Source: Malus domestica (Eukaryota; Streptophyta; Magnoliopsida; Rosales; Rosaceae). Taken from it: a DNA stretch of 64,000 bases. The DNA lies in assembly GCF_042453785.1 (NCBI RefSeq), contig NC_091677.1, forward strand, positions 27,653,501-27,717,500, given 5' to 3'. The notes below the pieces were generated by a model that was not told where the DNA came from, did no database searches, and worked only from the letters and a program-made list of their open reading frames with translations. The translations under genes were made by a program, and so were the position numbers. Shown here in pieces: positions 11,511 to 55,436 of the stretch (its first letter is position 1; every line of letters begins with the position of its first letter).

Positions 11511-11579
11511 GTGTCTTGTTTTGCAGTTTATTGCAACCTCCCTCTACCTCATTGGTTCTTCTATTCCCTTATTTGATTT

Positions 11580-13284: not shown

Positions 13285-16200
13285 CTATTCTAACCCTTTA
13301 ACTGATTTCACACCAAGCAATCCTCTTAGACAAGCAAATCGATCCTTTGGCAGAGCTTTAGTTAGGATATCAGCAATCTGATCTTCTATTTTGCAATAAA
13401 TCAGTTCGATTTCCTTTGCTTGAATGGCTTCTCTGATGGAATGAAACTTTCGACTGATATGTCTAGTTCTCTGGTGGAGAACTTGATTCTTTGCCATTGC
13501 TATGGTAGAAGTGTTATCACACAGAATTGGTGTGCCATCCATTTATTCCTCCCAAAAGTCTTCAAGCACAAACCTTAGCCATTTTTTCTGTGATATAGCT
13601 TCTGCAGCACTGACATATTCTGCTTTTGAAGTGGACGATGGCACTGTGCTTTGTTTGATCGATGCCCATGAAAACACACCAGATCCTATTGTAAATACAC
13701 ATCCTGAAGTGCTTCTCATATCATCTTCACTTCCTGCCAGTCATTATCACAGTAGCCAATTAGAGTAGTTGTCTTTCCTTTCATGAAATCAATTCCAAAG
13801 TCAAGAGTGCCCTAAATGTATCTCAACACCCTCTTGGCTGTTTCCATATGTTTCTTTGTGGGGTTATGCATGAATCTAGCAAGTAAACTAGAAGCAAACA
13901 TTATATCCGGCCTTGTAGCAGTCAAGTATAGTAGGCTACCTACAACCTATCTATATTCACTCTCATTTGCTGCTTCATTGCCATTTACTTTGCATAACTT
14001 CTCATTCACAGCAAGTGGTGTTTCCACAGATTTGCAATCTTTCATCCCAAACTTCTCAATAAGCTTCATTGCATATTTCTTTTGATGAATAAAAATGCTT
14101 TTATCTGTTTGTATTACCCTCATGCCAAGGAAGTGATAAAGTAACCCCAAATCAGTCATCTCATAATGCTGCATCATGTCATTCTTGAATTCCTCAAGTA
14201 GTTTTGGACAACTTTCAGTGTATACAATAGCATCCACATAGAGTGAAACAATAATGATACCTGAAGTTTCACTAGTCTTGACATAGAGTGTTGCTTCACT
14301 AGAACTTTTCTTGAGGCCTGCCTTGCTGAAATATAAGTCTATTTCATCATATCAGGCTCTTGGAGCTTGCTTTAGCCCATACAAAGCCTTGTTTAACTTA
14401 TACACCTTTGTTTCCTCACTCTCTTTCACAAACCCCCATTGTGGCTGCTTAACATAAACCTCTTCATTTAAGACTCCATTCAGAAAAGCAGATTTTACAT
14501 CTAACTGGTATAAGCTCCATTCTTTCTGTACAGTAAGAGCTATCATGGTTCTGATTATGTCCAACCTTGCCACTGGGGCAAATGTCTCATTGTAGTCTAT
14601 TCCAGGCTTTCGGGAGTAACCTTTTGCCACGAATCTAGCCTTGTTAATTCATTTGATAAAAACTCTCCACCCCTATCACTCCTTAGACATTTCATCTTAT
14701 ATCCACATTGCAGCTCAGTCATAGCTTTGAACTTTTGAAACATTCATATGCACTTGATTTGTTCCTGAGAAAGTACACTCATGTCATTTTGATACAATCA
14801 TCTGTGAACAATAGAAAGTACCTATTTCCAGAGATAGATTCAGTTTGCATTGGTCCACAGATGTCTGTGTGGACCAACTCTAATGGGAGTTTAGCTCTCC
14901 AAGTAGATATTGATGGAAAAGAATTTCTATGTTGTTTCCCTAGCATGCAGCCTTCACACACAATAGAAGTCTTCTCCAAATGAGGCAATCCATGAACCAT
15001 TTCTTGGTCTTCAAGCAGTTTGATGCTTATGTCAGGTGCCCCAATCTCTTATGCCATAAATGCAAACAATGTGTTACACTTGCCTTCAAGGCCAACTGAT
15101 TTGCAAGCAACATTGTAAGAAGAAAGCACATATTGTTTGTCATCTGCACTCTAACCACAAGATTGTCTAGTGACTAACCATCAAAGATATTCACTACATT
15201 TCCTCCAAACACTAGATAATACCCATGCTCCATCATCTGTCCAACATTAAGAAGATTATCTTCAAGTCCTAGAACAAGCATCACTTCTTGAATATGCTTT
15301 CTTCCTAATTTGGTCTCTATCACTAGAGTTCCCTTTCTTGCCACCTAAACAATTTCTCCAGTTCCCATCTTCACTTTGGAAGTCAGATTTATTTGAATAT
15401 TAACTAGCAACCTTTTATCACCTGTTATGTGGTTACTGCAACAACTATCAATGTACCATGAATGGTTCACCTTCACATCTGTCACTGCATTACATACATA
15501 AAACAAAGAACCAGTTTCTTCTATCTGATTTGCATAGTTCACCTTCTGTACACCCTTATTTCCATTGCAATCTCTGAGCACATGCCCAAACTTCACACAG
15601 CCTGTGCATTTAGGCTTCCTTTCAAACCAACACTTGCCATAATGCACTTTATCAGTGTTTACAAGATGTTTTGTTTCCATCATGAGGGACATTTGGTTTG
15701 GGAGTAAAATTAGGCTTATTATGACATTTTTTTCCTTTGGATTACCAATTTTTTTGAAAATTTTGATTTCCAGAATAACCTCTACCTTTAGGATTTTTAC
15801 CTCTAACATTTAGACTTGTAAAAACCCTCTTTGTGGAGTTTTCAGCATGTCTATCCAATCTGAGCTCAAAGTATTTCAGAAAAGCAACTACTTCTTGAAC
15901 CTCAAGAGTTTCAAGGTTCTTAGAGTGTTCAATCACAGAGCAAATAGGGTCATATGATCTAGGCAAACTAATTAACAATTTATGCATAAACTCTTTCCCT
16001 AGACAGATCATCACCATAGTTTTTCATGTGATTCATTATATCAAACAGTCTAGCAAGATATACAGATAAGGATTCACTATCTTTCATACGAGTGTATTCA
16101 AATTCTCGACGCAAACCTTGCAATTTTACGCTCCTTACATGCTTAGCTCCTCTGAATTCTTGCTTCAGAATGTCCCAAGTACCCTTTGAGGTATCCTTGT

Positions 16201-16619: not shown

Positions 16620-17018
16620 TGTTAGAGTTTATAGCTTTTGGTATTTAGTTTTATGAAGGTTTTGAGTGTTTGGGAAGAAGGAAAATTATAGAGAAAATGC
16701 AACTATGGTGTTGTGAGAGTGATGAAGGTTCTGATTGTATTTCACACTCCACTAACCAAATATAACCGTTAGAGGAGAGAGAAAAGTGAGATTCTTCTCT
16801 AACAACTTTACACCAAGATTAAATCTTGGCCTTTGATTCTATCACCTTATGAGGTGATTACACTTGTCATAATCTATCACTTAAATCCTAGGCTAGAGAA
16901 GAGACCACTTGGACTATGATCCAATGGCTCAGATTACATTGAAAATAAACATATAAAAAGAAATTCAAAACTTGTGACTTTGTCTCCAAGATATCAGCTC
17001 AAGGGTTACACATCAACA
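16620..17018 (-). repeat. 5' LTR of the copia element
   Basis: A 399-bp LTR with TG...CA ends, followed on the right by the target duplication ATAAG. It differs from its partner by scattered substitutions and lacks the 77-bp duplication. Confidence 0.94.
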
Positions 17019-17571: not shown

Positions 17572-21438
<3,867 letters not shown>

Positions 21439-23190
21439 TGTGAATGAAGACAGAAGAAGCACGAGAGAGAGAGAGAGAGAGGTTCGTCGATTGAAGACTC
21501 AAAAAGAGAGGGGAATGCAATTTGGTAGAAAAGGTTATTAGTAGTGATCGATAATTCTTAAGGATGGGGGATGACGAGGTATACTCATTTTCTTGTTAGG
21601 AAAGGTTTCCTGATGTTTCTAATTGAAAACAAATTTTAATTTGTTGAGGCATGCTAACTCCTTTTCTTTTTAGGGAAAAAATGCTTTCTAAATATAATTT
21701 TATTAACTCCTTTAAAATTGAAATTGTTAAATATATCATTTGTGATTTGTCAACAATGCTTACATGTATGTAATACAATCATCATCTTGACCATCAGATG
21801 GTGATTGTATTAAATTTATATATTCTCAGTGTGAGGCTTAGCACAATCTCTCACATTTTTAGATAAACAATATGGTATGTATTAAAAAAAGTTGTAACTA
21901 CATTACTTACTATACTTTGAGTTTGTTGCTTATATTATATATGTCAATCATTTTAATTTTCTCATAACTCAATTATCCAAATTTTCATTATTTATAAAAT
22001 TTCCTTGGATTGGATGGGTTTTATCCCGAATTATAAAATATAACAGTTTGATTTGGTTCTGTTTGATCAAAGATTTTAAAAAACCAAAATTGTTTTTATT
22101 AAAAATTTTCCCTTAGGAGATTCGGTAGTAAAAACTTAAAACAAACAATCATTTTTACTACTGGACTTTTAAACATGTGTTGAAATACCACCTAAACATT
22201 TATTTTTTATTTTTTACCACCTGTATTCTCTTAATTGTTAGAACCTACCACATACGTTACTTTCCATCCATTTTGTCGTTAAAACATGTCACTTGTAAAA
22301 ATATTTTCGTCAATTAACTTTATGGGTCTGACTAGAATCGGATTTGCTCCTAATAATACTAACATAGTCAACGTAGTGCCAAAATTGGGGGTTTGTACAA
22401 CCCCAGTTCAGCAATTCCCTATATAAGAGTTTGAAAATTAATATTTGAATAAATTATGGTCAATTGCACACGCAATTGCTGACATACAAAATAAATCTTG
22501 AAAACTCACTGCAAATGCATGACTGGATTTATGCATAATTTTCACTTCAGTCTTTAACAATCCTTCCCAAAATCAAACCTGACATCAACTTCTCCCTTTC
22601 TCTTCAGGACCTACTCCAATGCTGCTACAAGAACATGCATTTGGCCTTCGTAAAAATTGATTCCAGCGAGCCCTAGAAAATCAATTGACAAAAATATCCC
22701 TCCACATGAAAAGAGCGTGACATGTTTTAACAGGAAAATGAATAGAAAATAATGTGGGTGGTAGATTCCAACACTTAGGAGATTCGGTAGTAAAAATTAA
22801 AATTTAAAAGTTCAGGTGGTAGTTTTGCACATGCTTGCAACGTCATGTGATACTTGTGCAAAATCCTTTTAAAAGTTTTAGTGGAGTCAAGATTCAAAAC
22901 TAAACTAAAAGTTGGCCCTTTTCATTTTCAGTGATGCTATCCACACACTCATTTTACATTCACAAATCTTCTCAATTTTCGCCGTAGGATTGAATGAATT
23001 AAAATAATATTTATGGACAAAAATTAATAAGAATGTGTAAAAGATAAAATAGAGTGTGAATATCATTACCCTTAAATTTTTTTTTATTGATTTGTCAATT
23101 TTTTGGTTTTACATGGAAACTGGGAAGATAAACGACATAAGGAGTATAACGCACGACGTCGTCCTCTCCAGCAGCACAGCACGCGCTGGT
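21439..23190. other. CDC48-copy leader remnant and AT-rich intergenic DNA
   Basis: A (GA)n run at about 21463-21481 corresponds to a CT-rich leader of the CDC48 copy on the minus strand. Beyond it lies AT-rich sequence with no gene, apart from the inverted-repeat element listed separately at about 22168-22855. Confidence 0.6.
22168..22855. mobile_element. MULE-like element with ~120-bp inverted ends
   Basis: The left arm (about 22168-22295: ATACCACCT-AAC, GAACCTACCAC, CGTTAAAACATGTCAC) matches the reverse complement of the right arm (about 22717-22855: GTGACATGTTTTAACAG, GTGGTAGATTCCAACA, CAGGTGGTAGTTTTGC). Both arms carry the ACTACCGAATCTCC/GGAGATTCGGTAGT motif. Long terminal inverted repeats with a non-coding centre suggest a non-autonomous Mutator-like element. 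The target duplication was not resolved. Confidence 0.6.
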
Positions 23191-25536: not shown

Positions 25537-27507
25537 TTAATCAACCTCTTCAATCTTAGGTCCGGCTCCTGATCCACCACCGGAGCTAGCGTTTCCAAAT
25601 CCACCTCCAGGCATCTGAGCACCACCGCCCATCGGCACATCCCCACCAGCACCTTGATACATTTTGGCAATAATCGGGTTGCACAATCCCTCCAACTCCT
25701 TTTGCTTGTCCTCAAACTCCTCCACCTCGGCCAACTGGTTCCTGTCTAGCCACTCAATTGCCTCGTCAATGGCCTTCTCAATCTTCTGCTTGTCTGCAGG
25801 GTCTAATTTTCCTGCAACCTTCTCATCCTTGACAGTGTTCCGCATATTGTAGGCGTAGTTCTCGAGTGAGTTCTTGGCATCCACCTTCTTCTTCACCTCC
25901 TCATCTTCAGCCTTGTACTTCTCTGCCTCCTGCACCATTCTCTCGATCTCTTCCTTGCTCAATCTTCCCTTGTCGTTCGTAATAGTTATCTTGTTCTTCA
26001 CTCCAGCTGTCTTGTCTTCCGCCGACACATTCAAGATACCATTTGCATCAATGTCAAAACAGACATTGATCTGAGGGACACCTCTTGGAGCCGGAGGAAT
26101 GCCCGTGAGTTCAAATTTACCGAGGAGGTTGTTGTCCTTGGTTCTAGCCCTCTCTCCTTCGTACACCTGAATTAGCACTCCTGGCTGGTTGTCGGAGTAG
26201 GTAGAGAAGATCTGCTCCTTCTTGGTAGGAATGGTTGTGTTTCTCGGAATCAAAACCGTCATGACACCACCTGCAGTCTCAAGACCAAGGCTGAGAGGAG
26301 TGACATCAAGAAGCAACAGATCTTGGACCTTCTCATTTCCTTCGCCGGTTAAAATTGCAGCTTGAACAGCAGCACCATAAGCCACGGCTTCGTCAGGGTT
26401 TATGCTCTTGCACAATTCCTTGCCATTGAAGAAATCTTGCAAAAGCTGCTGAACTTTGGGAATTCTCGTCGACCCACCAACCAAAACAACCTCATCAACC
26501 CGACTCTTGTCGATTTTGGAATCCCTCAAACACTTCTCAACAGGTTCCATACACTTCCTAAACAAATCCATATTCATCTCTTCAAATCTCGCCCTAGTAA
26601 TTGTAGAATAGAAATCAATACCTTCGTAGAGCGAATCGATCTCAATTGTGGTCTGAGCGGTGGAAGACAGTGTCCTTTTCGCCCTCTCGCATGCAGTCCT
26701 CAACCTCCTCAAAGCTCTGGCATTGCTACTAATATCCTTCTTGTGCTTTCTCTTAAACTCTTGCACAAAGTGATTAACAAGCCTGTTGTCAAAATCCTCA
26801 CCACCAAGATGAGTATCGCCAGCAGTAGCCTTCACTTCGAAGATGCCTTCCTCAATTGTGAGCAAAGAAACATCGAAAGTCCCTCCACCAAGATCGAAAA
26901 TAAGAACATTCTTCTCGCCACTCCGGGATCCCTTCTTGTCAAGACCGTAAGCAATGGCAGCAGCAGTAGGCTCGTTGATAATCCTCATCACATTGAGCCC
27001 GGCGATGGAGCCAGCATCCTTTGTGGCCTGCCGCTGCGAGTCATTGAAGTAAGCAGGTACAGTGACCACAGCGTTGTTGCAAGGGTGACCCAAATAAGCC
27101 TCGGCAATCTCCCTCATCTTAATCAGCACCATTGAGGAAATCTCTTCCGGTGAAAACTGCTTCTCTTCGCCTTTGTAATTTACCACAATCATGGGTTTGT
27201 CGCCAGGGCCAGCTACGACCTTGAAAGGCCAGTGCTTCATGTCGCTCTGGACAGAAGGGTCGGAGAACCGCCTGCCGATGAGTCTCTTGGCGTCGAAAAC
27301 GGTGTTTTGGGGGTTCATAGCGACCTGGTTCTTGGCTGCGTCGCCGATCAAACGCTCGGTGTCGGTGAAGGCGACATAGGAAGGGGTGGTTCTGTTGCCC
27401 TGGTCATTGGCTATGATCTCAACGCGGTCGTTCTGCCACACCCCGACGCAGCTGTAGGTGGTACCGAGGTCGATGCCGATGGCCTTACCTTGCGTCTTTG
27501 AAGCCAT
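25537..27507 (-). CDS. HSP70: Cytosolic heat shock protein 70 (copy A)
   Basis: A 656-residue ATP-dependent chaperone with no intron. HSP70 signatures are IDLGTTYS at residues 11-18, [12 protein letters not shown] at about 206-217 and [15 protein letters not shown] at about 341-355. The G-rich tail and terminal EEVD mark a cytosolic/nuclear form that can bind TPR co-chaperones. The start [11 protein letters not shown] at 27507 is preferred; extending two codons upstream would need a TTG start. Diagnostic A-type residues are [38 protein letters not shown] and the ending PKIEEVD. Most constitutive plant HSC70 genes carry one intron near codon 72, so the intronless form fits a heat-inducible member. 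Divergence from copies B and C is concentrated around residues 125-140 and in the last 100. Confidence 0.97.
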
Positions 27508-28777: not shown

Positions 28778-28887
28778 TGTTAGATTATAAGGGTTAGTCT
28801 CTTACGAGGATAACAAATAATACAATGAGTTCTTTGTGGTCATACAAGTACGTTGTCTTACTGAAGAGACACCAGATTTGGTCGAAA
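28778..28887 (-). repeat. Truncated 3' LTR of the second copia element
   Basis: Only about 110 bp of LTR homology remain. Directly beside it is pol sequence ending in the reverse transcriptase/RNase H connection (minus-strand residues like PYASIVGSLMYAQ), so a deletion has removed RNase H and most of U3. Confidence 0.75.
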
Positions 28888-35116: not shown

Positions 35117-35124
35117 GTGCCTGC

Positions 35125-36058
35125 CCAAATTTTTAGAGTTTTGCACAACGAAAAATTGATCTCGCAAAGTCTCAAAAAAAAATTTTTAAAAAAAATCCTG
35201 CGTCCCATTTTTGGCTCCCGTCCAAATTTAAGGATTTTGCACTACGAAATATTGGTCGCGCAAAGTCTGAAAAAAAATTCTGCGTCCCATTTTTGGTGCT
35301 CGCCCAAATTTTGAGAGTTTTGCACGATGAAGCGTTGGTCGCGCAAAGTCTTAATATATATATATATATATTTTTTTTTAAATTTTCGCGTCCTATTTTT
35401 GGCTCCCATCCAAATTTAAGGATTTTGCACGACGAAATATTGGTTTGTCGCACAAAATGTATAAAAATAATTTTTATAAATAATAAAAAAATAATTTTTT
35501 TACAATTTAAAATATAAATAAGATTTAGACGACCAAATATGTATTCGTCGTGCAAAGAAAATAATAAAAAAATAATTTAATTTAACAATATAAAATATAA
35601 AAATAAATAAATAATAAGTAAATATTGGTTAGGTGACAAAATATTGATTTTCGTCGCGCAAAGTTTAAAATAAAAATAAAAATTTATGAAAACAACTATA
35701 TTTTAAAATTTATAATATAAAATTAAATAAAAAACAAAAATAAATTGGTTTGCGGGACGCATGTATACATGATGACGTTGTGCTATTGGTTTTTGCACAA
35801 CAACCCCATTATGGTGTCGCACACGTTATATTTTAAAAAAAAATTATTATAAAGTTTACTGAAATATGATTTTACTCCCTTCAAATTCAATTTTTTTACA
35901 TAAAATCCACAACAATATATTTTCTAACAAAAATCCGATCCGAACTACAATAATAAATTTAAAACTACTTAATAAATATATATAATATTCAATTTTTTAA
36001 GTGTTATACATACAAAATAAATAAATTTAAAGCTACTTAATATATATACACACACACA
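35125..36058. repeat. CACTA subterminal-repeat-like stretch
   Basis: Four to five tandem units of about 90-110 bp between 35125 and 35440 each read CCCATTTTTGG-GC-CCGCCCAAATTT...TTTTGCACGACGAAATATTGGTCGCGCAAAGTCT. They are followed by AT-rich DNA with further single motifs to about 35830. This is an internally amplified transposase-binding-type motif rather than a gene. Confidence 0.75.
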
Positions 36059-38600
36059 CACCATTCAACGATCCAACCGTCAAACTTGTTTGTATACACT
36101 TCGAGATCGTATACATCAAAAATCACAAAAAGCAAATATTCAAAGATCAAGTAACGGGACAAAACTTTTTAACAGTTATAAACGAAAAATCATGATTTAA
36201 CGGTTATTTTAACTCCGATTTTGATGATTTTTTATAGCTACACTCCTTGACCGTATATGAATACAATGAATGAATTTGATCTTCAATTTAAAATATTTAC
36301 ACTAGTGTATGTTATTGTAGACATCGAAATTTCGGTAAATAAATGTTGACCGATAAATCAAAGTGTCAACGCTCATGTATTACATAAATTTTACACGTAG
36401 CGTGTGGCTCAACGAAAATTGAAATGAGTTGGAAAAGTCATCAAATAGGACACGTGTCAACACCTGGCAGAAACGACCTATTTCATCTGGAATATTATAT
36501 TCAAAATTAGGCCTTGGAAAATTCTATAAATACAAGCCCATTTCATTCATTTGAAGGACCAATTCATATTACACCTTGAAGCTCTGAAGCTCTGAAACTC
36601 CGAAGCTCTCAAGCATCCAGGTTCCCGAAGAATCAAGAAAGCCTTCTTCATTCTTCGTCCATCGTTCTTCCAAGATCAAGTCCCAACGGCCCTTTGGATC
36701 AACAAACAATCACCAACTCAAGATTAAGCCCCGACGGCCCTTGAAGAAAGTGTTCTTCATTCTTCGTCCATCGTTCTTCCAAGATCAAGCCCTAACGGCC
36801 CTTTGGATCAACAAACAATCACCAACTCAAGATCAAGCCCTGACGGCCCTTGAAGAAAGTGTTCTTCGTTCTTCGTTCATCGTTCTTCCAAGATCAAGCC
36901 CCGACGGCCCTTGGATCAACAACATCAACAAATCCACACATCCAACCGTTCTTCAAGATTAAGCCCAAAAGCCCTTGAAGATTCGTTCATCACCGTTATT
37001 CAAGATCAAACCTTAGCGGCCCTTGAAGAAACACTCATCCTCAAGATCAAGCCTCAACGGCCCCCTTGAAGATCCGCTCAAATCCACCTTCAAAGATCAA
37101 GCCCACGGCCCTTTGAAGAAACTTCCAACAGTTCATCCAAGATCAAGCCTCAACGGCCCTTGGATCAACGGAACATCCACGAATACACACCTCACGGAGA
37201 TCGAATCAGAGGATCAAAATTTGAGAGAGATTGTAACCCAAAACCATCAAAATACAAATATTTGTTTGTGCACGTTGTTCTTGTCTCTTTCGTTTCAGGA
37301 ATTTTCCGTGTTCACAGTTATACTTAATGAAAGTATAAATAAACCAAGTGTTAGTGAATCTATTGTTTTGATGAGATACGCATTCTACAAAACTAGTTTC
37401 AACGATTCACCCGTCAAACTTGTTTCGAGATCGCATACGCCAAAAATCACAAAAAACAAATATTCATATATCAAGTAACGAGACAAAACTTTTCAACGGT
37501 TATAAACGAAAAATTACGATTTAATGGTTATTTCAACTCCAATTTTGATAATTTTTTACAGCTACACTCCTTGACCCTATATGAATACAATGACTAAATT
37601 CGATATTCAATTTAAAATATTTACACTATTTTATGTTATACTTAATGAAAGTATAAATAAACTCTAAGTGTTAGTGAATCTATTGTTTTGATGGGATACG
37701 CATTCTACGAAATTAGTTTTAACGATCCAACCATCAAACTTTTTTGTATATACTTCGAGATCGCATACGCTAAAAATTACAAAAAACAAACATTCAGAGA
37801 TCAAGTAACGGGACAAAACTTTTCAATGGTTATAAACGAAAAATCACGATTTAACAGTTACTTTAACTCCGATTTTGATGATTTTTTACAGCTGCACTCC
37901 TTGACCCTATATGAATACAATGACTGAATTTGATTTTCAATTTAAAATATTTACACTAGTGTTATGTTATACTTAATGAAAGTATAAATAAACTCTTAAG
38001 TGTTAGTGAATTTTTTGTTTTGATGGGATACGCATTCTACAAAACTAGTTTCAACGATCCAACCATCAAACCTTTTTATATATACTTCGAGATCACATAC
38101 GCTAAAAATCACAAAAAACAAACATTCAGAGATCAAATAACGAGACAAAACTTTTCAACGGTTATGAACGAAAAATCACGATTTAACAGTTACTTTAACT
38201 CCGATTTTGATGATTTTTTACAGCTACACTCCTTGACCCTATATGAATACAATGACTGAATTTGATTTTCAATTTAAAATATTTACACTAGTGTTATGTT
38301 ATACTTAATGAAAGTATAAATAAACTCTAAGTGTTAGTGAATTTTTTGTTTTGATGGGATACGCATTCTACAAAACTAGTTTCAACGATCCAACCATCAA
38401 ATTTTTTTGTATATACTTCGAGATCGCATACGCCAAAAACCACAAAAAAAAACAAACATTCACAGATCAAGTAACAAGACAAAACTTTTCGATAGTTCTA
38501 AATGAAAAATCACGATTTAATTGTTATTTTAACTCCGATTTTGATGATTTTTTATAGCTACACTACTTGACCCTATATGAATACAATGAACTAATTCAAT
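36059..38600 (+). repeat. ~331-bp tandem array, about five units
   Basis: Units begin near 36059 (interrupted at 36316), 37371, 37688, 38020 and 38351, with spacing 331-332 bp between the last three. Shared landmarks are GGGATACGCATTCTAC, AACGATCCAACCATCAAA, ATACTTCGAGATCGCATACG, GAGATCAAGTAACGGGACAAA, CCGATTTTGATGATTTTTTA and TTATGTTATACTTAATGAAAG. Each unit leaves a similar 68-79 codon open frame, but its bounds are set by the repeat and it has no start context or known domain, so I treat it as non-coding. Confidence 0.92.
36316..37316 (+). mobile_element. Solo LTR inserted in the tandem array
   Basis: Starts TGTAGACATCGAAATTTCGG and ends TTCCGTGTTCACA, flanked by a perfect GTTAT duplication (36311-36315 and 37317-37321). 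A TATA-like TCTATAAATAC lies at about 36522. The 3' half holds a minisatellite of AAGATCAAGCCC-AACGGCCCTTG units (about ten between 36670 and 37160). No internal region is present. Confidence 0.93.
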
Positions 38601-39301
38601 CGTCAATTTAAAATATATTTTTCTAACAAAAACCCGATCCGAACTACAATAATATATTTTTCTAACAAAAACCCGATCCAAACTACAATAATAAATTTAA
38701 AGCTACTTAATAAATATATATACCATTCAATTTCTTATGTGTTATACGTATAAAATAAATAAATTTAAAGCTACTTAATACATATATATATATATATATC
38801 ATTCAATTTTGCAAGTTTATATTAATCATCATCCGAACTACAATAATAATTCTCGCTATCCTCACTACTTAATAAATATATATACCATTCAAATAGTCTT
38901 TGCACAACGGTGAACCAGAACGTAGCTCAAAGGCCATTTGCGCGACGTGGTTGGTCCGTCGTACAATTTTTTGGTGCCAAATCAAGGCTTTTACCGTTTT
39001 TTTTCTTCAACATTTGCGCAACGCGATTGGTCCATCTCGCTCAATTTTCTGGCGCCAAACCAAAACTTCATAATAAAAACTTATGAAAATAACTATATTT
39101 TAAAATTTATAATGTAAAATTAAATTAAAAAAACAAAAATAAATTGGTTTAGGTGACTAAATATTTGGATTACATCGCGCAAATATTTAAATTTTATTTT
39201 ATTTTTGTAAAGAATTTGCACGAAGTTGAAAGTTTTGTCGTGCAAAGTGACTTTGCGCAACGATATGTGTTTCGTCAAGCAAAATGTTTTTTGTAGTAGT
39301 G
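38601..39301. other. Right end of the CACTA element
   Basis: AT-rich with a (TA)n run near 38785-38800 and a duplicated TATTTTTCTAACAAAAACCCGATCC-AACTACAATAAT segment (about 38613 and 38651, also near 35920). The last 350 bp carry TTTGCGCAACG-type subterminal motifs. Confidence 0.7.
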
Positions 39302-41023: not shown

Positions 41024-44000
41024 ATTTTTATTTTTTATTTTTTATTTTTTTTGAGAAACCTAGATGGTACGAGGAAAATTTAATTGATAACGAAAAAATA
41101 AGTTACACCTAGTCAGATGGGAGATAAACCTTACCCCTCAGAAAACAAAGACAAAGGAAAGGAATACATGAAAAAGAAGGGGGACATAAACCTTACCTTT
41201 CTAGAAACAAAAACAAGAATGATACGAACAAAAGAGGGGGAACATAACACCTAACCCCTCTAAGACCAAACCTAAAGGTTTAAACATGCAAAACAAGTTG
41301 AACAACATCATAAAGTTAGGAGAGATAAAAAAAAAAGTGAGACAAACCTACTGCTGACATGCACATTAATTTGAGAAGCAGTAGCCAGACAAACCAACAT
41401 AGTCTGCAAACACAGTAAGTAGCATGAGCCGCCATCGGAGGAGAATCATGTCATGTTAAAGATGGAGAAGGCAAGCCCATTGATGAGTAGATTTTATATT
41501 ATATATTTAATCATATTCTTAGTATATTTTGGTTATTATTTTGGAAGAATTTTGATACTTTGAATTGTATTTTCAATATAGAACTTTCTACTTCCTCTGG
41601 AGCAAAACGTAGTCAAATGGACGAATTTTGGAGTAATTCTAGTTGGAGGACATTCGTGAGTCAGTTAGCTTGATCATGTCAAAATATCAGATTTTTCCAT
41701 TAGGCGGTTATTTTATGGAAATAGAATAAAGTAGTAGTGCGCGGTACTGGAATAGTGATGTTTTGGGCTTGAATTACGTTTTTAGAGCCCAAGATGACCT
41801 CAAATGGGTTCGTGGCCTTCTGGAGATATGTTCAGAACGTCCCGCTCTTCAAAACAAGCTATCATGGGCCGGATTTAAAGGATATTTGAGACTAAAACGT
41901 GGCTGGACAATTACTTGGCAGATTTTCCTAGCTTAATTCAGATTTTATTTTCTAAGATATTTTATTATTATTCTTCGTTTCCTAGCTGGAATAAAGGACC
42001 TGGTTTTTAGGGTTTGTGCGATGGCATAGCAACATATATTGTTTTGCCGTCCACAGTTTTTCACTAGGCTTTCTTTTATGCAACTTTGGATACAGAGAAA
42101 ATTGCTAGGGTTCTTTGAGATTTTCTACTTTAAGGTGTTTTCAATCATTTTCTTAATAATATTTTCTATGCTTTTAATTATGAATATGCATAACTAATTC
42201 CTTTTGCTAGGACTAAGCCTTGAGCCTTAGCATGAATATGTGATTTTTATTTAATTGCTTATAATTGATTGCATGCACACTTGAATTTTTAATCACTGTG
42301 ATTAAAACTATCTAATTGTTTTAATACCTGATCACCATTAGGATCTTTAGACAAGTAATTTGATGCAACTTTGGTCGAAAGGTTCCCTAAAATTGATGCT
42401 GGCTTCTTGTGATTAATAATTGTAATTTTACTTAAGATGAATATCACGTCTTAAGGGTTGCAAGGTTTTTCAAAGGCTTTTCATAAAGCATAATGAGTCT
42501 CTCATGTTCAGATTTGATTCGAACGTCCGGACGGGTTGCATGTTAGATATATGTTCTATGTTGGAGGTTCCAAATAGAATATAAATTAGGAAAACCTCAC
42601 CTTCAATGTGGCATGTGTAGATCATAAGTAATTGGTAAAAATTCATAGGATTCCTAGGTGATGGTGGAACCCTAGTGCTTTCTTAATTTGATTTCTCCAA
42701 AACTGGTTCCTTTTTCTTCATCTTTAATATTGCATATTAGTTTATTTTTATTAGTTAAATTCGTTTTTATTAAATTAGGTCATAAAAATCAATCATCTCA
42801 AATTTCTATTTTACAATAATCAATTGGAATTTGGTTTGCTTCGAATTATTTAATAATTCCTGTGGAGAACGACCTTACAATATCTGTTTATAGTACAATA
42901 ACCTTGTCATTCTTGCAAGTAATATAGGAGTTTTTATCCTTACTTTTGTAGGTGGTAAAAATCCCTATCACCTATGTTAGCAAAATTGTCCGCAACAAGA
43001 TTACCTTTGCTATATATGTGAGATGTGTAAAAAGTTATTTACCGAATGCAATCCAAACAAATAAACCATTGTGTACGAAGAGGCCAAGAAGGATCAAAAT
43101 TAGACGATTGAAGAGCAAAAATAATACTACAATTGTCACTTTCCAACCAAAGACAACGTCAACCCCGCTGATATGCAAACTCTACACCAATAATAATTGT
43201 TGATAACTCTACAAAAAAAAAATTGAGATGACCAATCCATTGACAGAAACCTCTAAGAAAACGACCATGGCAATTCCTGAAAACTCCTCTACAAGCAGTA
43301 AGACCAGGATTTCCTTTAGATAAACCATCTGTATTAAGCTTAACCCAAGGAAACCAAGGATGAGACCGAAGGACAAGAAGAATAGTAGGCGCCTTGCGAG
43401 GGATAGGTCGGATCCCCAAAGAAGAAATGGTCCGAGTGTCAAAACCCTGAGAGTAACAGGAATAAACTTCTCACAATGAACAATCGCAGAATTGATAGAT
43501 ATGCAAAGACGATGAAAATAGATTGGACGACCCTAAAAAATAAACTTAGTTCGAGCCTTCCAAATAGCTGAAATAGTAGAAAGACCTGTAAAAATCCATA
43601 GATTGTGCAACTGTTTGAAAAAGAGCTTACAGACGTAGACATCCCAAAAAATAGGAAAAGAATATGAAAGAGGCAAAGAGGTACCAAATTGACATACTAA
43701 CCACCTCCAAAGTTGCCTAGATATCCGACAGCCGAAGAAAAGATGAGCAGTAGATTCTTTAGAATTACAACATAAACAACAAATGGATGCCAAAGAAATA
43801 TCATGTCATTGTAGCGCACCCTCTGTAGGAAGTTTATCATGAAAAAGCCTCTAGGCCAATATAGATAGTCATGGCGGAATAAAATGTTGCCAAATAATTG
43901 TAGCCCAAGCACAATCACTATGTCTCCTTCAAATACGGTGATAACCAAAAGAAAAAAGAAAACTTCCTAGTAAGTGAGGGCTCCCAAATCAATTTGTTAT

Positions 44001-44213: not shown

Positions 44214-44230
44214 AGGATTACAAATAATAC

Positions 44231-44706
44231 AATGGGTTCTTTGTGATCATACATATATATAAGTACATGTTGTCTTACTGAAGAGACACCAGCATAAATA
44301 TTAGAGATTGTAAGGTTGTGCACAACTGGTGTTTCTACTGAAATACAAGTACCTGAAGATGCCATTGGAGTTGGATGAATGCACAGGGAAACACACGAGA
44401 GAGGCTTTCCACTCACGCAGTGCCTTATGCTCAATACTAGTGATGGGTGTGTGATCAAGTGAATGTATAAGCTTGTGTGCTAGGTCTAGTGATCGACCGT
44501 ATAAGCTTGTGAGCAGGACCGTCCCCTTAGCATATTCCTAACTGAATTCCAGCTATCAGTCAGTGCCCTAATAATCTACATGACTAACAGGTTGTTTAAC
44601 CACAACCTAATCACGTCACCCTAATATCCTGTAATCAAGGAAATCAGTTCTTCCACACGGTTCTTATCATGATCTGAGAGAGTCCAAATAGAAACCTAAT
44701 AAATCA
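44231..44706 (-). repeat. Remaining part of the right LTR of the second copia element
   Basis: Starts with sequence matching the left LTR (AATGGGTTCTTTGTG, GTCTTACTGAAGAGACACCAG to about 44292). The remainder has no partner because the left LTR is deleted. The end at 44706 is inferred from the start of HSP70-flank homology. Confidence 0.55.
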
Positions 44707-44917
44707 GTACATTCTTTGAAATTTGAGGAAACACGTTTTAATTCGATTCCAGAAGACGCTGAAAGATAAATCAGTAATAATATTATACAAACCCTCTCAT
44801 AATTCCTATGGCTACAGCCTACAGCTCTGCATTATTCCGCATCTACTAACTCAAGATAACTCAGTACACAAAGAGCAGAGTTCACAAGCTGTACGTCACT
44901 TGGAAACCTCTTCAAGC

Positions 44918-45476
44918 TTAATCAACCTCTTCAATCTTAGGTCCGGCTCCTGATCCACCACCACAGCTAGCGTTTCCACCTCCAGGCATCCGAGCACCAC
45001 CGCCCATTGGCACATCCCCACCAGCACCTTGATACATTTTGGCAATAATCGTGTTGCACAATCCCTCCAACTCCTTTTGCTTATCCTTAAACTCCTCCAC
45101 CTCAGCCAACTGGTTCCGGTCTAGCCACTCGATTGCCTCGTCAATGGCCTTCTCCATCTTCTGCTTGTCAGCAGGATCTAATTTTCCAGCGATCTTCTCA
45201 TCCTTGATGGCGTTCCGTATGTTGTATGCGTAATTCTCGAGGGAGTTCTTGGCATCTACCTTCTTCTTCACCTCCTCATCTTCAGCCTTGTACCTCTCTG
45301 CCTTTTGCACCATTCTCTCAACCTCTTCCTTGCTCAATCTTCCCTTGTCGTTGGTATTGGTGATCTTGTTCTTCACTCCAGCAGTCTCGTCTTCCGCCGA
45401 CACGTTCAATATACCATTTGCATCAATGTCAAAGCAGACATTGATCTGAGGGACACCTCTTGGCGCCGGAGGAATG
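44918..45476 (-). pseudogene. HSP70 C-terminal fragment (A')
   Basis: Reads about 185 codons from the [20 protein letters not shown] region (residue about 476 of HSP70) to EEVD and stop. It has A-type residues ([18 protein letters not shown]) plus its own changes: [21 protein letters not shown] with a deleted FG, and NASCGGG. It lacks the ATPase domain and any promoter. At 45471-45476 it is joined directly to the DNA downstream of copy B. Its 3' flank (44707-44917) is homologous to that of copy A. Confidence 0.95.
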
Positions 45477-46027
45477 ATAGAACAGACAATACACCAATGG
45501 CGCTAGATTCTGGTTCCATGTAAGTACACATCTAGAGGATCCTCTTTGTAGGATGCTGAAGATCCTCATCGTACAATCGTGCGGCCAACTTCTGTTAGGT
45601 ATTGTTTGCCTTTAATTTAAATAAAAAAAATTAAAATGATTTATAACCTCATGATATACGATAAATTGATAGGATGTAAAAATCCGAATGGGATCCAAAT
45701 CTTACATCTTAGTGCATTTTTTGGAGCAAATTACGGGGGTACCTCTTAAAACATTTGGCAGTGGAACCACCACAAATGAGTGGCTATGACAGACCACCAT
45801 AAACCCTAAATCCTAATGAACATGTAGCAATCAAATGAAAGTGTTAGATAAGACTAAGCAACCATTGCACCAAACAACTAATCGAGCAATAAACATAATA
45901 TGCCAGGAAAAGAAAGTTTACATCATTGTAAATCTAGGACATTAACAAAAACATTGTATATTTGTAGGCAATTATTCAAGCAGTCACAAACAGAGAAGAA
46001 ATAACCAACTAAACCAAACACTTAATT
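45471..46027 (-). repeat. C-type 3' flank downstream of HSP70-B
   Basis: The reverse complement matches 54886-55436 behind HSP70-C nearly end to end, including the 3' UTR and a small AT-rich MITE-like stretch with AGGATCC ends (about 45520-45715 here, about 55155-55380 there). Copy B has about 67 bp absent from C, bounded by CATTTG direct repeats, which suggests a slippage deletion in C. Confidence 0.92.
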
Positions 46028-47998
46028 TCAGTCAACTTCCTCAATCGTAGGCCCGGCTCCTGATCCGCCACCGGACGTAGTGTTTCCAAATCCGCTACCA
46101 GGCATCTGAGCACCACCGCCCATCGGCACGTTTCCGCCAGGACCCTGATACATTTTGGCAATGATCGGGTTGCACAATCCCTCCAACTCCTTTTGCTTGT
46201 CCTCAAATTCCTCCACCTCGGCCAACTGGTTCCGGTCTAGCCACTCGATTGCCTCGTCAATGGCCTTCTCAATCTTCTGCTTGTCTGCAGGGTCTAATTT
46301 TCCAGCAATCTGCTCATCCTTGATGGTGTTCCGCATGTTGTATGCGTAGTTCTCAAGCGAGTTCTTGGCATCCACCTTCTTCTTCACCTCCTCATCTTCA
46401 GCCTTGTACCTCTCTGCCTCCTGCACCATTCTCTCAATCTCTTCCTTGCTCAGTCTTCCCTTGTCGTTGGTAATAGTGATCTTATTCTTCACTCCAGCAG
46501 TCTTGTCTTCCGCCGACACATTCAAGATACCATTTGCATCAATGTCAAAGCAGACATTGATCTGAGGGACGCCTCTTGGCGCCGGAGGAATGCCCGTGAG
46601 TTCAAACTTGCCGAGGAGGTTGTTGTCCTTGGTTCTAGCCCTCTCTCCTTCATACACCTGAATTAACACTCCTGGCTGGTTGTCGGAGTAGGTAGAGAAG
46701 ATCTGCTCCTTCTTGGTAGGAATGGTTGTGTTTCTCGGAATCAAGACGGTCATCACACCACCTGCAGTCTCAAGACCAAGGCTGAGAGGAGTGACATCAA
46801 GAAGCAACAGATCTTGGACCTTCTCATTTCCTTCGCCGGTTAAAATTGCAGCTTGAACAGCAGCACCATAAGCCACGGCTTCGTCAGGGTTTATGCTCTT
46901 GCACAATTCCTTGCCATTGAAGAAATCTTGCAAAAGCTGCTGAACTTTGGGAATTCTCGTCGACCCACCAACCAAAACAACCTCATCAACTCGACTCTTG
47001 TCGATTTTGGAATCCCTCAAACACTTTTCAACAGGTTCCATACACTTCCTGAACAAATCCATATTCATCTCTTCAAATCTCGCCCTAGTAATTGTAGAAT
47101 AGAAATCAATACCTTCATAGAGCGAATCGATCTCAATGGTGGTCTGAGCGGTGGAAGACAAGGTCCTTTTCGCTCTCTCGCACGCAGTCCTCAACCTCCT
47201 CAAAGCTCTGGCATTGCTACTAATATCCTTCTTGTGCTTTCTCTTAAACTCTTGCACAAAGTGATTAACAAGCCTGTTGTCAAAATCCTCACCACCAAGA
47301 TGAGTATCACCAGCAGTAGCCTTCACTTCGAAGATCCCTTCCTCAATTGTGAGCAAAGAAACATCAAAAGTCCCACCACCAAGATCGAAAATAAGAACAT
47401 TCTTCTCGCCAGTACTGGATCCCTTCTTGTCAAGACCGTAAGCAATGGCAGCAGCAGTAGGCTCGTTGATAATCCTCATCACATTGAGCCCGGCAATGGA
47501 GCCAGCATCCTTTGTGGCCTGCCTCTGCGAGTCATTGAAGTAAGCAGGTACAGTGACCACAGCGTTGTTGCAAGGATGACCCAAATAAGCCTCGGCAACC
47601 TCCCTCATCTTAGTCAGCACCATCGACGATATCTCTTCCGCCGCAAACTGCTTCTCTTCGCCTTTGTAATTTACCACAATCATCGGCTTGTCGCCAGGAC
47701 CAGCAACGACCTTGAAAGGCCAGTGCTTCATGTCGCTCTGGACAGAAGGGTCGGAGAACCGCCTGCCGATGAGTCTCTTGGCGTCAAAAACGGTGTTTTG
47801 GGGGTTCATAGCGACCTGGTTCTTGGCTGCATCGCCGATCAAACGCTCCGTGTCGGTGAAGGCGACATAGGAAGGGGTGGTCCTGTTTCCCTGGTCATTG
47901 GCTATGATCTCAACGCGGTCGTTCTGCCACACCCCGACGCAGCTGTAGGTGGTGCCGAGGTCGATGCCGATAGCCTTGCCTTGCGTCTTTGCAGCCAT
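46028..47998 (-). CDS. HSP70: Cytosolic heat shock protein 70 (copy B, mosaic)
   Basis: Intact, 656 residues, intronless, with the same HSP70 signatures and terminal EEVD as copy A. Start [11 protein letters not shown] at 47998; the longer frame would need a TTG start. From about residue 125 onward it carries C-type markers ([54 protein letters not shown]). Before that it is mixed, with A-like VVAGPGDK. Private or shared-with-A differences from C are few (A3, MREVAEA, GSSTGEK, RVDEVV). Upstream DNA is A-type and downstream DNA is C-type, so this gene is a recombinant. It should work as a stress-responsive chaperone like its neighbours. Confidence 0.97.
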
Positions 47999-48144
47999 GG
48001 ACAACAAATCAGTGCGAAACTATTGAATAACTGGTTCGAGAAAACAACGAAAAAAGAAGCAAAATCTGGTTGCTCTGGAAATTTGAATTTTGTGGTTGTC
48101 TGGAATGCTTTTGGTTTGAGTATGAGGCGGGGTTTGGGGGTTCA

Positions 48145-48335
48145 AATTTATATGGGTGAGTAGGGTTCGTGGAGAGCTTCATGGGAGAGGAAGAGAAGGT
48201 GGTGGAAGGGACTGGGAGGTTGTGAGAAAAATCAGTGGGAGATGTCGAACGGTTCTGGAGAGTTCTGGAGAACACTCGAACCGTCGAAGGTTACACCAGA
48301 GAGTTCTGGAGAGTGGTTGAACTCTGAGTTGGCTT
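48145..48335 (-). promoter_or_regulatory. HSP70-B promoter: TATA box and clustered heat shock elements
   Basis: On the minus strand TATAAATT is at 48145-48152, about 150 bp before the ATG. The + strand at 48247-48282 reads GAACGGTTCTGGAGAG then TTCTGGAGAACACTCGAA, and 48302-48315 reads another TTCTGGAGAG. Alternating TTC and GAA/GAG blocks at 5-bp steps are heat shock factor sites. The cluster is longer than in copy A. Confidence 0.72.
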
Positions 48336-49677
48336 GTTTGCTTTTTCCACATATGTATGATCCAATTAAAGTAAAACACGCAGCTAGTTCTGTTTTGAAT
48401 GGTAACGTTGGATTTTGTCTTCTTGTGGTCTGAAAGCGAGAGAAGGGGGATTTGAAAAGGGATCTTTTGATAAGGGTGTGCCTTTTTTACCTCTCACATA
48501 TTTCTTGTTTATTTTTGTCCGTTGATCTTCTTTAATTCATCTGGTTCGATAATTGAAAATTAAAAATATGTAAGAAAAGTAAAAAGAAGTGTGTGGATAT
48601 CACACCCTTTTGATATGGATTAAAGTAACGAAAAATTAAACCTATTTCAAAAATTAAAAATCACTAAAAATTAAATCTATTTCAAAAGTAGGCTTATAAA
48701 ATTAAACCTATTTCAAATTTTTCCATTTGAAAAATTGCTCTGCGATGTCTCCTTTAATTCTTTAACAAGCAGGTGTACCTGCGCGGTGTTGAGGGTTTGA
48801 AAAATATTGAAGGTGTAAAAAGTTCTGAAAAATATATGTGCTTAAGAGTAGATTGTATATAGGTACATTACATCCTCAAATAATGACCTCAAAAATGCTC
48901 TCCGAGGACGACCTCGGAGTCATCTTGACACAACACTCTTCCAGACGTCAATATGCTCAGCTTCAAAACAAAAAAAAATTAAATTAATCACAAAATTAAA
49001 TTGTTTTAGAAACATAAACTTAAGAACACAAAAAATCAAAACATTTCGAAAGCACATATTCTTAATCATATATCAAAATTAAATTCAACCTTTTTTATCA
49101 TTTTCGACAAAGATCAAACCTTTTTTATGAACATTTCTTTCTCCTTTGATTATCATGGGACAATGAATCCTTTCTTTTGAATAAATAGAATCAAATGGAT
49201 TGATATTGGTACGACATGACCTATTAACAAAGATTCATTCCAATACACCGAACATTTCTTTTTAGGATATACGAAGTATGAGATTTCAGTAAATTGATTC
49301 TTTTGAAATCTTTAATCCATTTTGATCCACGCCCACTCATTCTTTCTTTATTTCTTTACTTTTTGCAGAGATATTTGCTTCTTAATTAAGCTAATATTGG
49401 TGCAGCCCAAACATGACTCTCTGAATCCAATTCCTAGAATTAGTTTTGTGTAGAAAATACAGCCTAGTAGAGTGAGGGGGTACTTTATAATGAAGAAAAT
49501 TTTCTTTGTGTTCGAAACACGAGTAATATACCACTTGTCTTTATATAAGCAGAGAAAAGTTTTATTTTTTAAGTTGTCAATTTTTTAACACAGGTATCTC
49601 ACAACTTGTACAGTGACACCTATCTCTCCTCCGAAGGAAGTGTTTTCCTCCATTAATCTCCACTCCTACTAACTCAA

Positions 49678-49682
<5 letters not shown>
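48336..49682. other. Spacer between the divergent HSP70 copies, AT-rich
   Basis: No coding signal. It holds the inverted copy of the HCT-intron repeat at 48632-48727 (listed separately) and otherwise unremarkable AT-rich sequence. Confidence 0.6.
48632..48727 (-). repeat. Dispersed AT-rich repeat (inverted partner of 2752-2860)
   Basis: Contains three AAATTAAACCTATTTCAAA-like units. The reverse complement matches the sequence just inside the HCT intron. Confidence 0.6.
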
Positions 49683-49730
<48 letters not shown>

Positions 49731-49938
49731 AATTGCTTAAGGGGAGGGATCCCCATTTTTTCAAAAAAATGGGGACACGCTCCACACCGTTGGATTTGAA
49801 TTAAATGAAATCCTGTGGTTGAGATTCTATGGCCTGTGTTTTAATCTCAACCACACAATTTCATTAAAGTCAATCTAACGGTGGAGAGCGTGTCCCCATT
49901 TTTTCAAAAAAAAATGGGGATCCCTCCCCTTAAGCTCC

Positions 49939-50005
<67 letters not shown>
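49683..50005. mobile_element. Fold-back MITE embedded in a (TA)n microsatellite
   Basis: The core is about 49734-49940. The left arm GCTTAAGGGGAGGGATCCCC...AAATGGGGACACGCTC is the reverse complement of the right arm GAGCGTGTCCCCATTTT...GGGGATCCCTCCCCTTAAGC, with a centre of about 85 bp that also folds (GTGGTTGAGATT / AATCTCAACCAC). It is bracketed by (TA)n runs at about 49683-49728 and 49942-50004, so it used a TA-type target or expanded one. Confidence 0.85.
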
Positions 50006-52599: not shown

Positions 52600-52914
52600 A
52601 ACGTGTTGATTAGCCCAATTCCCACTCCCTCCCAAACCCAAATCCAAATGTAGGAAGTTGGACACATTGGTTCAATGTTTCCAGATCTCTCTGGTTCCTT
52701 CCTTCTTCCCTCTTTTCTTCTTCTATACTTCTACATACCTCTCGAAATTTCTTGCCCTCCTCCTTCGTACTAGACACCCAATGCCTGTATATATGCATTG
52801 CCATGGTCTCCCAGGCAGACCATCAGGCAAACAACAACAGAAAAGCTCACTTCACCCACTCAACAACCCTAATCCTTCTTTTAAATTTTTTCGTGATTTC
52901 TTCTTTTCTTATTC
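52600..52914 (+). promoter_or_regulatory. HSP70-C promoter and leader
   Basis: Unrelated in sequence to the A/B promoter. A heat-shock-like CGAAATTTCTTG is at 52743-52754, and a TATA-like GTATATATG lies near 52786. The leader includes short upstream ATGs (52782, 52795, 52804). The leader ends TTATTC before ATG at 52915. Confidence 0.5.
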
Positions 52915-54885
52915 ATGGCTTCAAAGACGCAAGGCAAGGCCATCGGCATCGACCTCGGGACCACCTACAGCTGCGTCGGGGTGTGGCAGAACGACCGCGT
53001 TGAGATCATAGCCAATGACCAGGGCAACAGAACCACCCCTTCCTATGTCGCCTTCACCGACACCGAGCGTTTGATCGGCGACGCAGCCAAGAACCAGGTC
53101 GCCATGAACCCCCAAAACACCGTTTTCGACGCCAAGAGACTCATCGGCAGGCGGTTCTCCGACCCTTCTGTCCAGAGCGACATGAAGCACTGGCCTTTCA
53201 AGGTCGTTTCTGGTCCCGGCGACAAGCCCATGATTGTGGTAAATTACAAAGGCGAAGAGAAGCAGTTTGCGGCGGAAGAGATATCGTCGATGGTGCTGAC
53301 TAAGATGAGGGAGATTGCCGAGGCTTATTTGGGTCACCCTTGCAACAACGCTGTGGTCACTGTACCTGCTTACTTCAATGACTCGCAGAGGCAGGCCACA
53401 AAGGATGCTGGCTCCATTGCCGGGCTCAATGTGATGAGGATTATCAACGAGCCTACTGCTGCTGCTATTGCTTACGGTCTTGACAAGAAGGGATCCGGTA
53501 CTGGCGAGAAGAATGTTCTTATTTTCGATCTTGGTGGTGGGACTTTTGATGTTTCTTTGCTCACAATTGAGGAAGGGATCTTCGAAGTGAAGGCTACTGC
53601 TGGCGATACTCATCTTGGTGGTGAGGATTTTGACAACAGGCTTGTTAATCACTTTGTGCAAGAGTTTAAGAGAAAGCACAAGAAGGATATTAGTAGCAAT
53701 GCCAGAGCCTTGAGGAGGTTGAGGACTGCGTGCGAGAGGGCGAAAAGGACTTTGTCTTCCACCGCTCAGACCACCATTGAGATCGATTCGCTCTACGAAG
53801 GTATTGATTTCTATTCTACAATTACTAGGGCGAGATTTGAAGAGATGAATATGGATTTGTTCAGGAAGTGTATGGAACCTGTTGAGAAGTGTTTGAGGGA
53901 TTCCAAAATCGACAAGAGTCGGGTTCATGAGGTTGTTTTAGTTGGTGGGTCGACGAGAATTCCCAAAGTTCAGCAGCTTTTGCAAGATTTCTTCAATGGC
54001 AAGGAATTGTGCAAGAGCATAAACCCTGACGAAGCCGTGGCTTATGGTGCTGCTGTTCAAGCTGCAATTTTAACCGGCGAAGGAAATGAGAAGGTCCAAG
54101 ATCTGTTGCTTCTTGACGTCACTCCTCTCAGCCTCGGTCTTGAGACTGCAGGTGGTGTCATGACCGTCTTGATTCCGAGAAATACCACCATTCCTACCAA
54201 GAAGGAGCAGATCTTCTCTACCTACTCCGACAATCAGCCAGGAGTGTTAATTCAGGTGTATGAAGGAGAAAGGGCTAGAACCAAGGACAACAACCTCCTC
54301 GGCAAGTTTGAACTCACGGGCATTCCTCCGGCGCCAAGAGGCGTCCCTCAGATCAATGTCTGCTTTGACATTGATGCAAATGGTATCTTGAATGTGTCGG
54401 CGGAGGACAAGACTGCTGGAGTGAAGAACAAGATCACTATTACCAACGACAAGGGAAGACTGAGCAAGGAAGAGATTGAGCGAATGGTGCAGGAGGCAGA
54501 GAGGTACAAGGCTGAAGATGAGGAGGTGAAGAAGAAGGTGGATGCCAAGAACTCGCTTGAGAACTACGCATACAACATGCGGAACACCATCAAAGATGAG
54601 CAGATTGCTGGAAAATTAGACCCTGCAGACAAGCAGAAGATTGAGAAGGCCATTGACGAGGCAATCGAGTGGCTAGACCGGAACCAGTTGGCCGAGGTGG
54701 AGGAATTTGAGGACAAGCAAAAGGAGTTGGAGGGATTGTGCAACCCGATCATTGCCAAAATGTATCAGGGTCCTGGCGGAAATGTGCCGATGGGCGGTGG
54801 TGCTCAGATGCCTGGTAGCGGATTTGGAAACACTACGTCCGGTGGCGGATCAGGAGCCGGGCCTACGATTGAGGAAGTTGACTGA
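52915..54885 (+). CDS. HSP70: Cytosolic heat shock protein 70 (copy C)
   Basis: 656 residues, intronless, with [20 protein letters not shown] and [15 protein letters not shown] signatures and the terminal EEVD. Start [11 protein letters not shown] at 52915. Distinct residues are [15 protein letters not shown] and [10 protein letters not shown] (His where A and B have Asp; both occur in this family). It is head-to-head with copy B across about 4.9 kb and is the evident source of B's body and 3' flank. ATP-driven folding of client proteins in cytosol and nucleus is the expected role. Confidence 0.97.
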
Positions 54886-55436
54886 AATTAAGGGTTTAGT
54901 TTAGTTGGTTTTTTCTTCTCTGTTTGTGACTCTGCTTGAATAATTGTCTACAAATATACAATGTTTTTGTTAATGTCCTAGATTTACAATGATGTAAACT
55001 TTCTTTTCCTGGCATATTATGTTTATTGCTCGATTAGTTGTGTGGTGCAATGGTTCCTTGGTCTCATCTAACACTTTCATTTGTTGTGGTTCCACTGCCA
55101 AATGTTTTAAGAGGTACCCACGTAATTTGCTCCATCATAAAATGCACTAAGATGTGGGAATAGGATCCCATCCAAAGAGAATCTTAGGGACTCACAACCT
55201 ATTTGTTAATCTTACATCATGCGGTTAGAAATTATTTGGACTTTTTTATTTAAATTTAAACATAACAACATCTAACGAAAGCTGATCGAACGATGCACGA
55301 TGAACTAATAGAATGTGAGGATCTCTAGCATCCTCACAAAAGAGGATCTGGAGAGGGTCCTCATCCCTAAGATGTGTAGTTGCTTAAATCGAACCAGAAT
55401 GTAGTGCCATTGGTGTATCGTCTGTTCTATCATTCC
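54886..55436 (+). repeat. HSP70-C 3' UTR and flank (source of the B 3' flank)
   Basis: Matches the reverse complement of 45471-46027. Homology stops at CATTCC (55431-55436), the same 6 bases where the other locus switches to HSP70 fragment A'. Confidence 0.92.

Follow-up and report, generated by a model that had tools for sequence, protein, structure and literature searches.

The HSP70 gene that we call copy B is a recombinant between paralogues, in that the flanks on its two sides belong to different paralogue lineages, and its formation by ectopic recombination is well supported. In the window, by which we mean the whole 64-kb stretch of DNA analysed (C17:27653501-27717500), there are three HSP70 genes, A, B and C, all open and intronless, each of 656 codons and plant-like in sequence. 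The coding sequences (CDS) of A and C occupy 25537..27507 (minus strand) and 52915..54885 (plus strand), and that of B occupies 46028..47998 on the minus strand; A and B are direct repeats by self-BLAST, and C is inverted relative to B. The protein of copy C matches chain 7n6g_6K, 'Heat shock protein 70A', over residues 7-656, and the A and B proteins are equal to it in length and near-identical in sequence. A C-terminal EEVD is the defining mark of eukaryotic cytosolic HSP70, and A, B and C all terminate in IEEVD, as does a truncated copy, the stub, that lies behind B. Full-length similarity and the EEVD end thus point to eukaryotic cytosolic HSP70 for all three genes, and with their open frames and low dN/dS they look functional (dS is 0.078 and dN 0.003 between B and C, and dS is 0.185 between A and B).

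Read along the minus strand, B consists of A-type upstream DNA, a coding sequence with a C-type 3′ end, and a C-type flank that runs to 45471, beyond which stands the A-type stub; this anatomy had been put forward in the original prediction, and self-BLAST bears it out. The alignment of B with A covers 48347-45971 and 27836-25480 (92%), while that of B with C covers 48008-45471 and 52905-55436 (91.9%) and ends exactly at the claimed junction. The match between A and C is confined to the CDS (27517-25541 and 52905-54881), and forced control alignments detected no homology between them outside it (p=0.60 for the promoter, 0.54 for the 3′ flank). A forced control alignment likewise detected no homology between the promoters of B and C (p=0.56), and that of the B and A 3′ flanks gave 0.53, in the same range as the A-C controls. 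Since A and C have no detectable homology outside the CDS, B therefore unites two lineages.

A search of the genome (651 Mb, 19 contigs) with 44700-48400 gave a similar picture. Within the listing, which gives the best 40 of 597 candidates, 93-98% was reached by A and C alone; the next long match stood at 79%, and long matches at a higher level to a fourth HSP70 gene were absent. The part of the query that is B's C-type flank found C's flank only among these matches, which omit A's own 3′ flank and are hence uninformative on A-type 3′ flanks. At least 20 partial HSP70-like matches (68-73%) fell within C1:23899083-24144655, which suggests an HSP70-related cluster there.

The window also holds several repeats. 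A 1.5-kb repeat occurs three times at ∼85% identity (10013-11512, 19796-21282 and 41478-42970), with no long open frames in the copy examined. Direct repeats of 93.9% identity (12807-13169 and 16620-16981) flank an ORF with a Pol beta-barrel domain (15345-15809), and the whole is likely to be a retrotransposon. Long near-palindromes lie at 457-906, 22171-22836 and, between B and C, 49682-50005, and several overlapping direct self-matches of ∼100-980 bases at 35117-38616 suggest tandem repeats.

The upstream region and leader of B (48008..48347, minus strand), with a TATA-like box at −154, match A, from which they differ at 31 of 310 aligned sites (K2P 0.108), and are without detectable homology to the C promoter, as had been predicted. 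The only genome matches to the A-type upstream region were A and B themselves (2 candidates). As regards the further label of a heat-shock promoter, a scan of the 600 nt upstream of A, B and C for heat-shock elements (at least 8 of 9 positions) gave no clear signal, with 0, 1 and 1 elements, respectively, and scores near a window background of 0.3 per 600 nt.

On the other side of B, the C-type 3′ UTR and flank (45471..46027, minus strand, aligned to C) give way to the stub across a 6-bp microhomology, CATTCC on the minus strand (45471..45476), which self-comparison finds in B, in C at 55431-55436 and in the CDS of A. The B-C self-BLAST alignment ends at 45471, as claimed, and GGAATG, the same six bases on the other strand, is indeed all that the two parents share at the junction. 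When C's flank and A's CDS are joined at random, six or more bases are shared in 0.17% of cases (P=0.0017), and so the microhomology speaks for a direct join of flank and stub.

The stub (44918..45476, minus strand) is an HSP70 C-terminus that starts from the last base of codon 469 and is open to the stop, with one 6-base in-frame deletion; behind it follows an A-type 3′ flank (44706..44917, minus strand). Self-BLAST aligned 45476-44728 with A 26101-25385 (85.7%), plus 28 bp at 44733-44706 (96%), and over 44921-44728 the flank differs from A at 29 of 152 sites (K2P 0.225). Among the stub's 68 variable sites, 23 unite it with A against B and C, and none unites it with C against A and B or with B against A and C. 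These counts and the self-BLAST alignments together sustain the proposal of an A-type C-terminus and 3′ flank from 45476 to ∼44706. Most of the 23 sites (19) lie in the stub's last ∼280 nt; by polarity, 11 are derived in B and C, 5 in the stub and A, and 7 are ambiguous. A tree of the stub region places the stub with B and C, not A, at 57%, and thus the A-type label rests on the last ∼280 nt of the CDS and on the 3′ flank. A 79-bp repeat (83.5%), probably a repeat element, occurs downstream of the stub at 44214-44292 and upstream of A at 28807-28875.

The stub has no in-frame ATG at its head, where the frame runs into stops upstream in the C-type flank. Its private changes number 24, of which 13 are synonymous and 11 nonsynonymous; the latter are fewer than neutrality throughout would give (p=0.0003) and more than constraint would allow if omega is taken as 0.06 (p=0.002). 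When these sites were polarised, 9 nonsynonymous and 5 synonymous changes were derived in the stub, 3 synonymous changes were derived in A, B or C, and 2 nonsynonymous and 5 synonymous ones were ambiguous. The stub was thus under gene constraint until about 0.02 (0.015-0.022) substitutions per site ago, and, lacking a start codon and with its constraint relaxed, it is classed as a pseudogene fragment. The upstream regions of A and B (31/310) are less diverged than the flanks of A and the stub (29/152, p=0.008), as expected if B's upstream region and the stub come from different genes, although constraint on the promoter would also produce this difference.

The alignment of the three copies and its informative sites support the outline of a recombinant, but the C-like sites are unevenly spread along the coding sequence of B. 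There are 84 variable sites at which B is A- or C-like (68 C, 16 A), 18 that are private to B and 3 at which all copies differ. In the first 293 nt (47706..47998, minus strand), B is the outlier, with a ratio of C-like to A-like sites of 1:1 and with 9 differences between A and B, 9 between B and C and 3 between A and C. B is C-like in nt 294-600 (47399..47705; 14:3, with 18, 7 and 18 differences for the same pairs), near-even in nt 601-1356 (46643..47398; 11:9; 18, 16 and 21) and clearly C-type in nt 1357-1971 (46028..46642; 42:3; 44, 5 and 45), all on the minus strand. The original prediction of a mosaic over the first ∼125 codons followed by a C-type body is thus too simple: nt 294-600 and 1357-1971 conform to it, but nt 1-293 and 601-1356 lean to neither A nor C. 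An A/C mosaic in the first 125 codons was rejected, as over nt 1-293 A is almost the same as C and it is B that stands apart.

This near-identical tract (A 27215-27507, minus strand; C 52915-53207, plus strand) differs at 3 of 293 sites, compared to 84 of 1678 (∼5%) in the remainder (p=0.001), and 7 of the 18 B-private sites fall within it (p=0.011). The near-identity suggests later conversion between A and C, and nt 1-293 of these two genes are likely to be such a conversion tract. Sites were polarised against an outgroup of five HSP70 genes from the same genome that are more distantly related, which left many sites without a polarity. The shared-derived sites were 3 for A and C in nt 1-293; 4 for B and C and 1 for A and B in nt 294-1011; 3 for A and B and 1 for B and C in nt 1012-1406; and 13 for B and C and 1 for A and B in nt 1407-1971. 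Trees of the segments are in conflict, as repeated conversion among three genes would cause. The first (nt 1-293) sets A and C apart from B (83%), those of nt 294-1011 and 1012-1406 place C beside the outgroups, that is, A with B (43 and 78%, respectively), with B in the former not joining C, and that of nt 1408-1968 unites B and C with 100% bootstrap. With the segment trees in disagreement, the upstream switch between A and C is bounded only to between −10 and about CDS nt 1357. A max-chi2 break between nt 1356 and 1389 (p=0.04) means only that A-like sites are rarer after it, and a candidate A-like patch at nt 1012-1356, which holds 8 of the 16 A-like sites, fell short of significance in a shuffled-label scan (p=0.29).

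The C-type flank of B bears on the age of the exchange. It differs from C at 68 of 497 sites, and the differences are concentrated in a MITE: 12 of 266 sites differ before it, 49 of 166 within it and 7 of 65 after it. In C, the 211-bp MITE (55157-55367, plus strand; 55148..55376 with its target duplication) has an exact 9-bp target duplication, TAAGATGTG, at 55148-55156 and 55368-55376. Alignment finds a copy in the corresponding place in the flank of B (45536..45702, minus strand), of which the left target copy matches in 8 bases and the right is imperfect; an automatic search found no exact target duplication at this MITE. Among 24 loci, including B and C, that search gave few convincing target duplications (L015, L018, L031 and L032), and for several loci none or spurious internal repeats. 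The family is dispersed, with at least 51 matches to the C MITE at 68-81%, itself aside (40 scored of 770 candidates).

The identity of the B and C MITEs is 67-77%, depending on the alignment: 66.5% in the multiple alignment, which is poor at B's left end, 70% in a pairwise MAFFT alignment (49/166 sites differ) and 77% with laxer gaps (38/165). We compared both with 22 other genomic copies, each chosen because it matched B's or C's well. With laxer gaps, the B MITE is 73-83.5% identical to these copies, 16 of which are closer to it than C's is, and the C MITE is 70-82% identical, with 14 of the 22 closer than B's. Neither MITE appears among the listed matches of the other (the best 40 of 770 and of 514 candidates). 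A jump in B-C divergence at ∼45703, considered as the end of a conversion tract, was reinterpreted once the MITE was recognised there, and independent insertions of MITEs in one site are unlikely, as the other copies have different flanking repeats, although the automatic search gave convincing ones at few of them.

Recent copying of the flank from C should have brought C's MITE with it; thus, the two flanks separated long ago, or else one of the MITEs has been exchanged for another or has evolved rapidly. From the MITE to the junction, the 65 aligned sites are less diverged than the MITE (p=0.002), and their 7 differences favour a replaced or fast-changed MITE, or patchy conversion. The clocks on the copied tract and the truncation disagree, with the non-MITE flank and the decay of the stub young and the divergence of the MITE high.

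We slightly favour, at a little under even chances, an older A/C hybrid followed by a recent microhomology deletion that truncated an A-type neighbour; the number, order and kind of events are what we infer from the features above. On this reading, two HSP70 lineages of the same cluster that had long been separate would have recombined ectopically to give chimera B, the A lineage supplying the upstream region and the C lineage the 3′ end with its flank. The exchange that produced the hybrid would be the older event and would lie within the coding sequence; a recent deletion would then have extended from the 3′ flank of B to codon 469 of an A-type gene standing in tandem with it. The stub would be the recently severed C-terminal end of that gene, attached to B's C-type flank by microhomology-mediated end joining. 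Gene conversion may later have homogenised B with C over the 3′ part of the CDS and the proximal part of the 3′ UTR, and A with C over the first ∼293 nt. The young decay of the stub against the high divergence of the MITE, together with the smaller divergence of the A-B upstream regions than of the A-stub flanks, gives this two-event route its slight preference. A MITE at 67-77% in a flank that otherwise differs by ∼6% means that a single recent event in which C was the donor is at odds with at least one of the clocks.

Counting against two events, the route needs a lost gene part besides and is less economical, and the 7 differences in 65 sites between MITE and junction fit a flank that is young and a MITE that was replaced or has diverged unusually far. 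Moreover, the non-MITE flank (19/331) is consistent with the B-C synonymous divergence (p=0.38) and roughly with the decay of the stub, as one young event predicts. Such a single event, which we place somewhat short of even odds and close behind the two-event route, would begin when an A-type gene at the site of B broke near codon 469; one-sided invasion of a C-type copy within homologous coding DNA, synthesis through its 3′ end and flank, and a microhomology join to the other broken end would follow. One event would then account for the upstream region of B, its 3′ end and flank, the stub, the orientation and the microhomology. The donor would be C itself, if one of the MITEs was subsequently replaced or changed quickly, or else a C-type paralogue that has since disappeared. 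The MITE, differing at 38-49 of ∼166 sites and with no special affinity between the B and C copies, speaks against it, and so does the lack of a fourth gene among the matches described above (above 79% over a long stretch, best 40 of 597 candidates). Of the one-sided conversion with a microhomology exit originally proposed, the recombinant and the microhomology join are upheld; a single event from the present-day C has weak support, given the MITE divergence. The rejection of the A-like patch and the narrowing of the C-type coding part do not separate the leading routes, and leave our odds as they were. The stronger claim of a one-step origin by homology-primed copying with a microhomology exit, after which B was kept for changed expression, is unlikely.

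Because B lies in inverted orientation to C and in direct orientation to A, both inversion and unequal crossing-over between members of the cluster are possible sources of a hybrid, with the stub an independent broken duplicate that adjoins it by chance. We regard this as quite improbable, as it requires an independent truncated duplicate exactly at the end of the C-type flank, where the 6-bp microhomology (P=0.0017) points to a direct join, and the best 40 of 597 candidates include no fourth close gene as the reciprocal product. Close paralogues within 30 kb can also be misjoined in assembly, but an error of this sort is very improbable given the private divergence of B's segments (18 private coding sites, 31/310 upstream from A and 68/497 in the flank from C) and the 24 private changes of the stub, which would not result from an exchange of A for C sequence.

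The locus is a readable natural record of the exchange of parts between linked paralogues in a plant genome, in which an upstream region and a 3′ end can be re-paired with the protein left intact. The stub, the co-located MITE and the homogenised tracts are separate clocks on one locus, and the order of events is thus testable in relatives. If the one-step reading is true, an upstream region and a 3′ UTR were newly combined in a working chaperone gene. No title on this locus was found among the top-ranked literature matches listed, an Rfam search gave no match, and a search for relatives in viral contigs gave 16 pattern matches, 0 of which were confirmed. In its processes the B locus is a fresh example of what is known, a clear but ordinary case of recombination between sister genes.

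Microhomology-mediated deletion between tandem paralogues is a known process, with which the locus shares a 6-bp junction and a truncated downstream copy; unlike in a plain deletion of that kind, the upstream partner here is itself an A/C hybrid. In one-sided invasion, homologous entry and an end-joined exit would leave an anatomy of B's type, although the route to B is deduced from sequence and the clocks disagree on a single event. One-sided invasion in plants is the subject of work cited by PMC6923311. The hsp70 genes of Drosophila and Stratiomyidae undergo concerted evolution by ectopic gene conversion, according to the parts of PMC3924832 and PMC3071340 drawn on here. In the fly systems as these parts describe them, as here, linked and partly inverted copies have homogenised coding sequences and more diverged flanks, conversion tracts extend into 3′ UTRs, and there are truncated or rearranged pseudogenes. 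Unlike the fly genes in those same parts, the locus described here, in a plant, combines the upstream region of one lineage with the 3′ flank of the other, and abuts a truncated copy over a microhomology.
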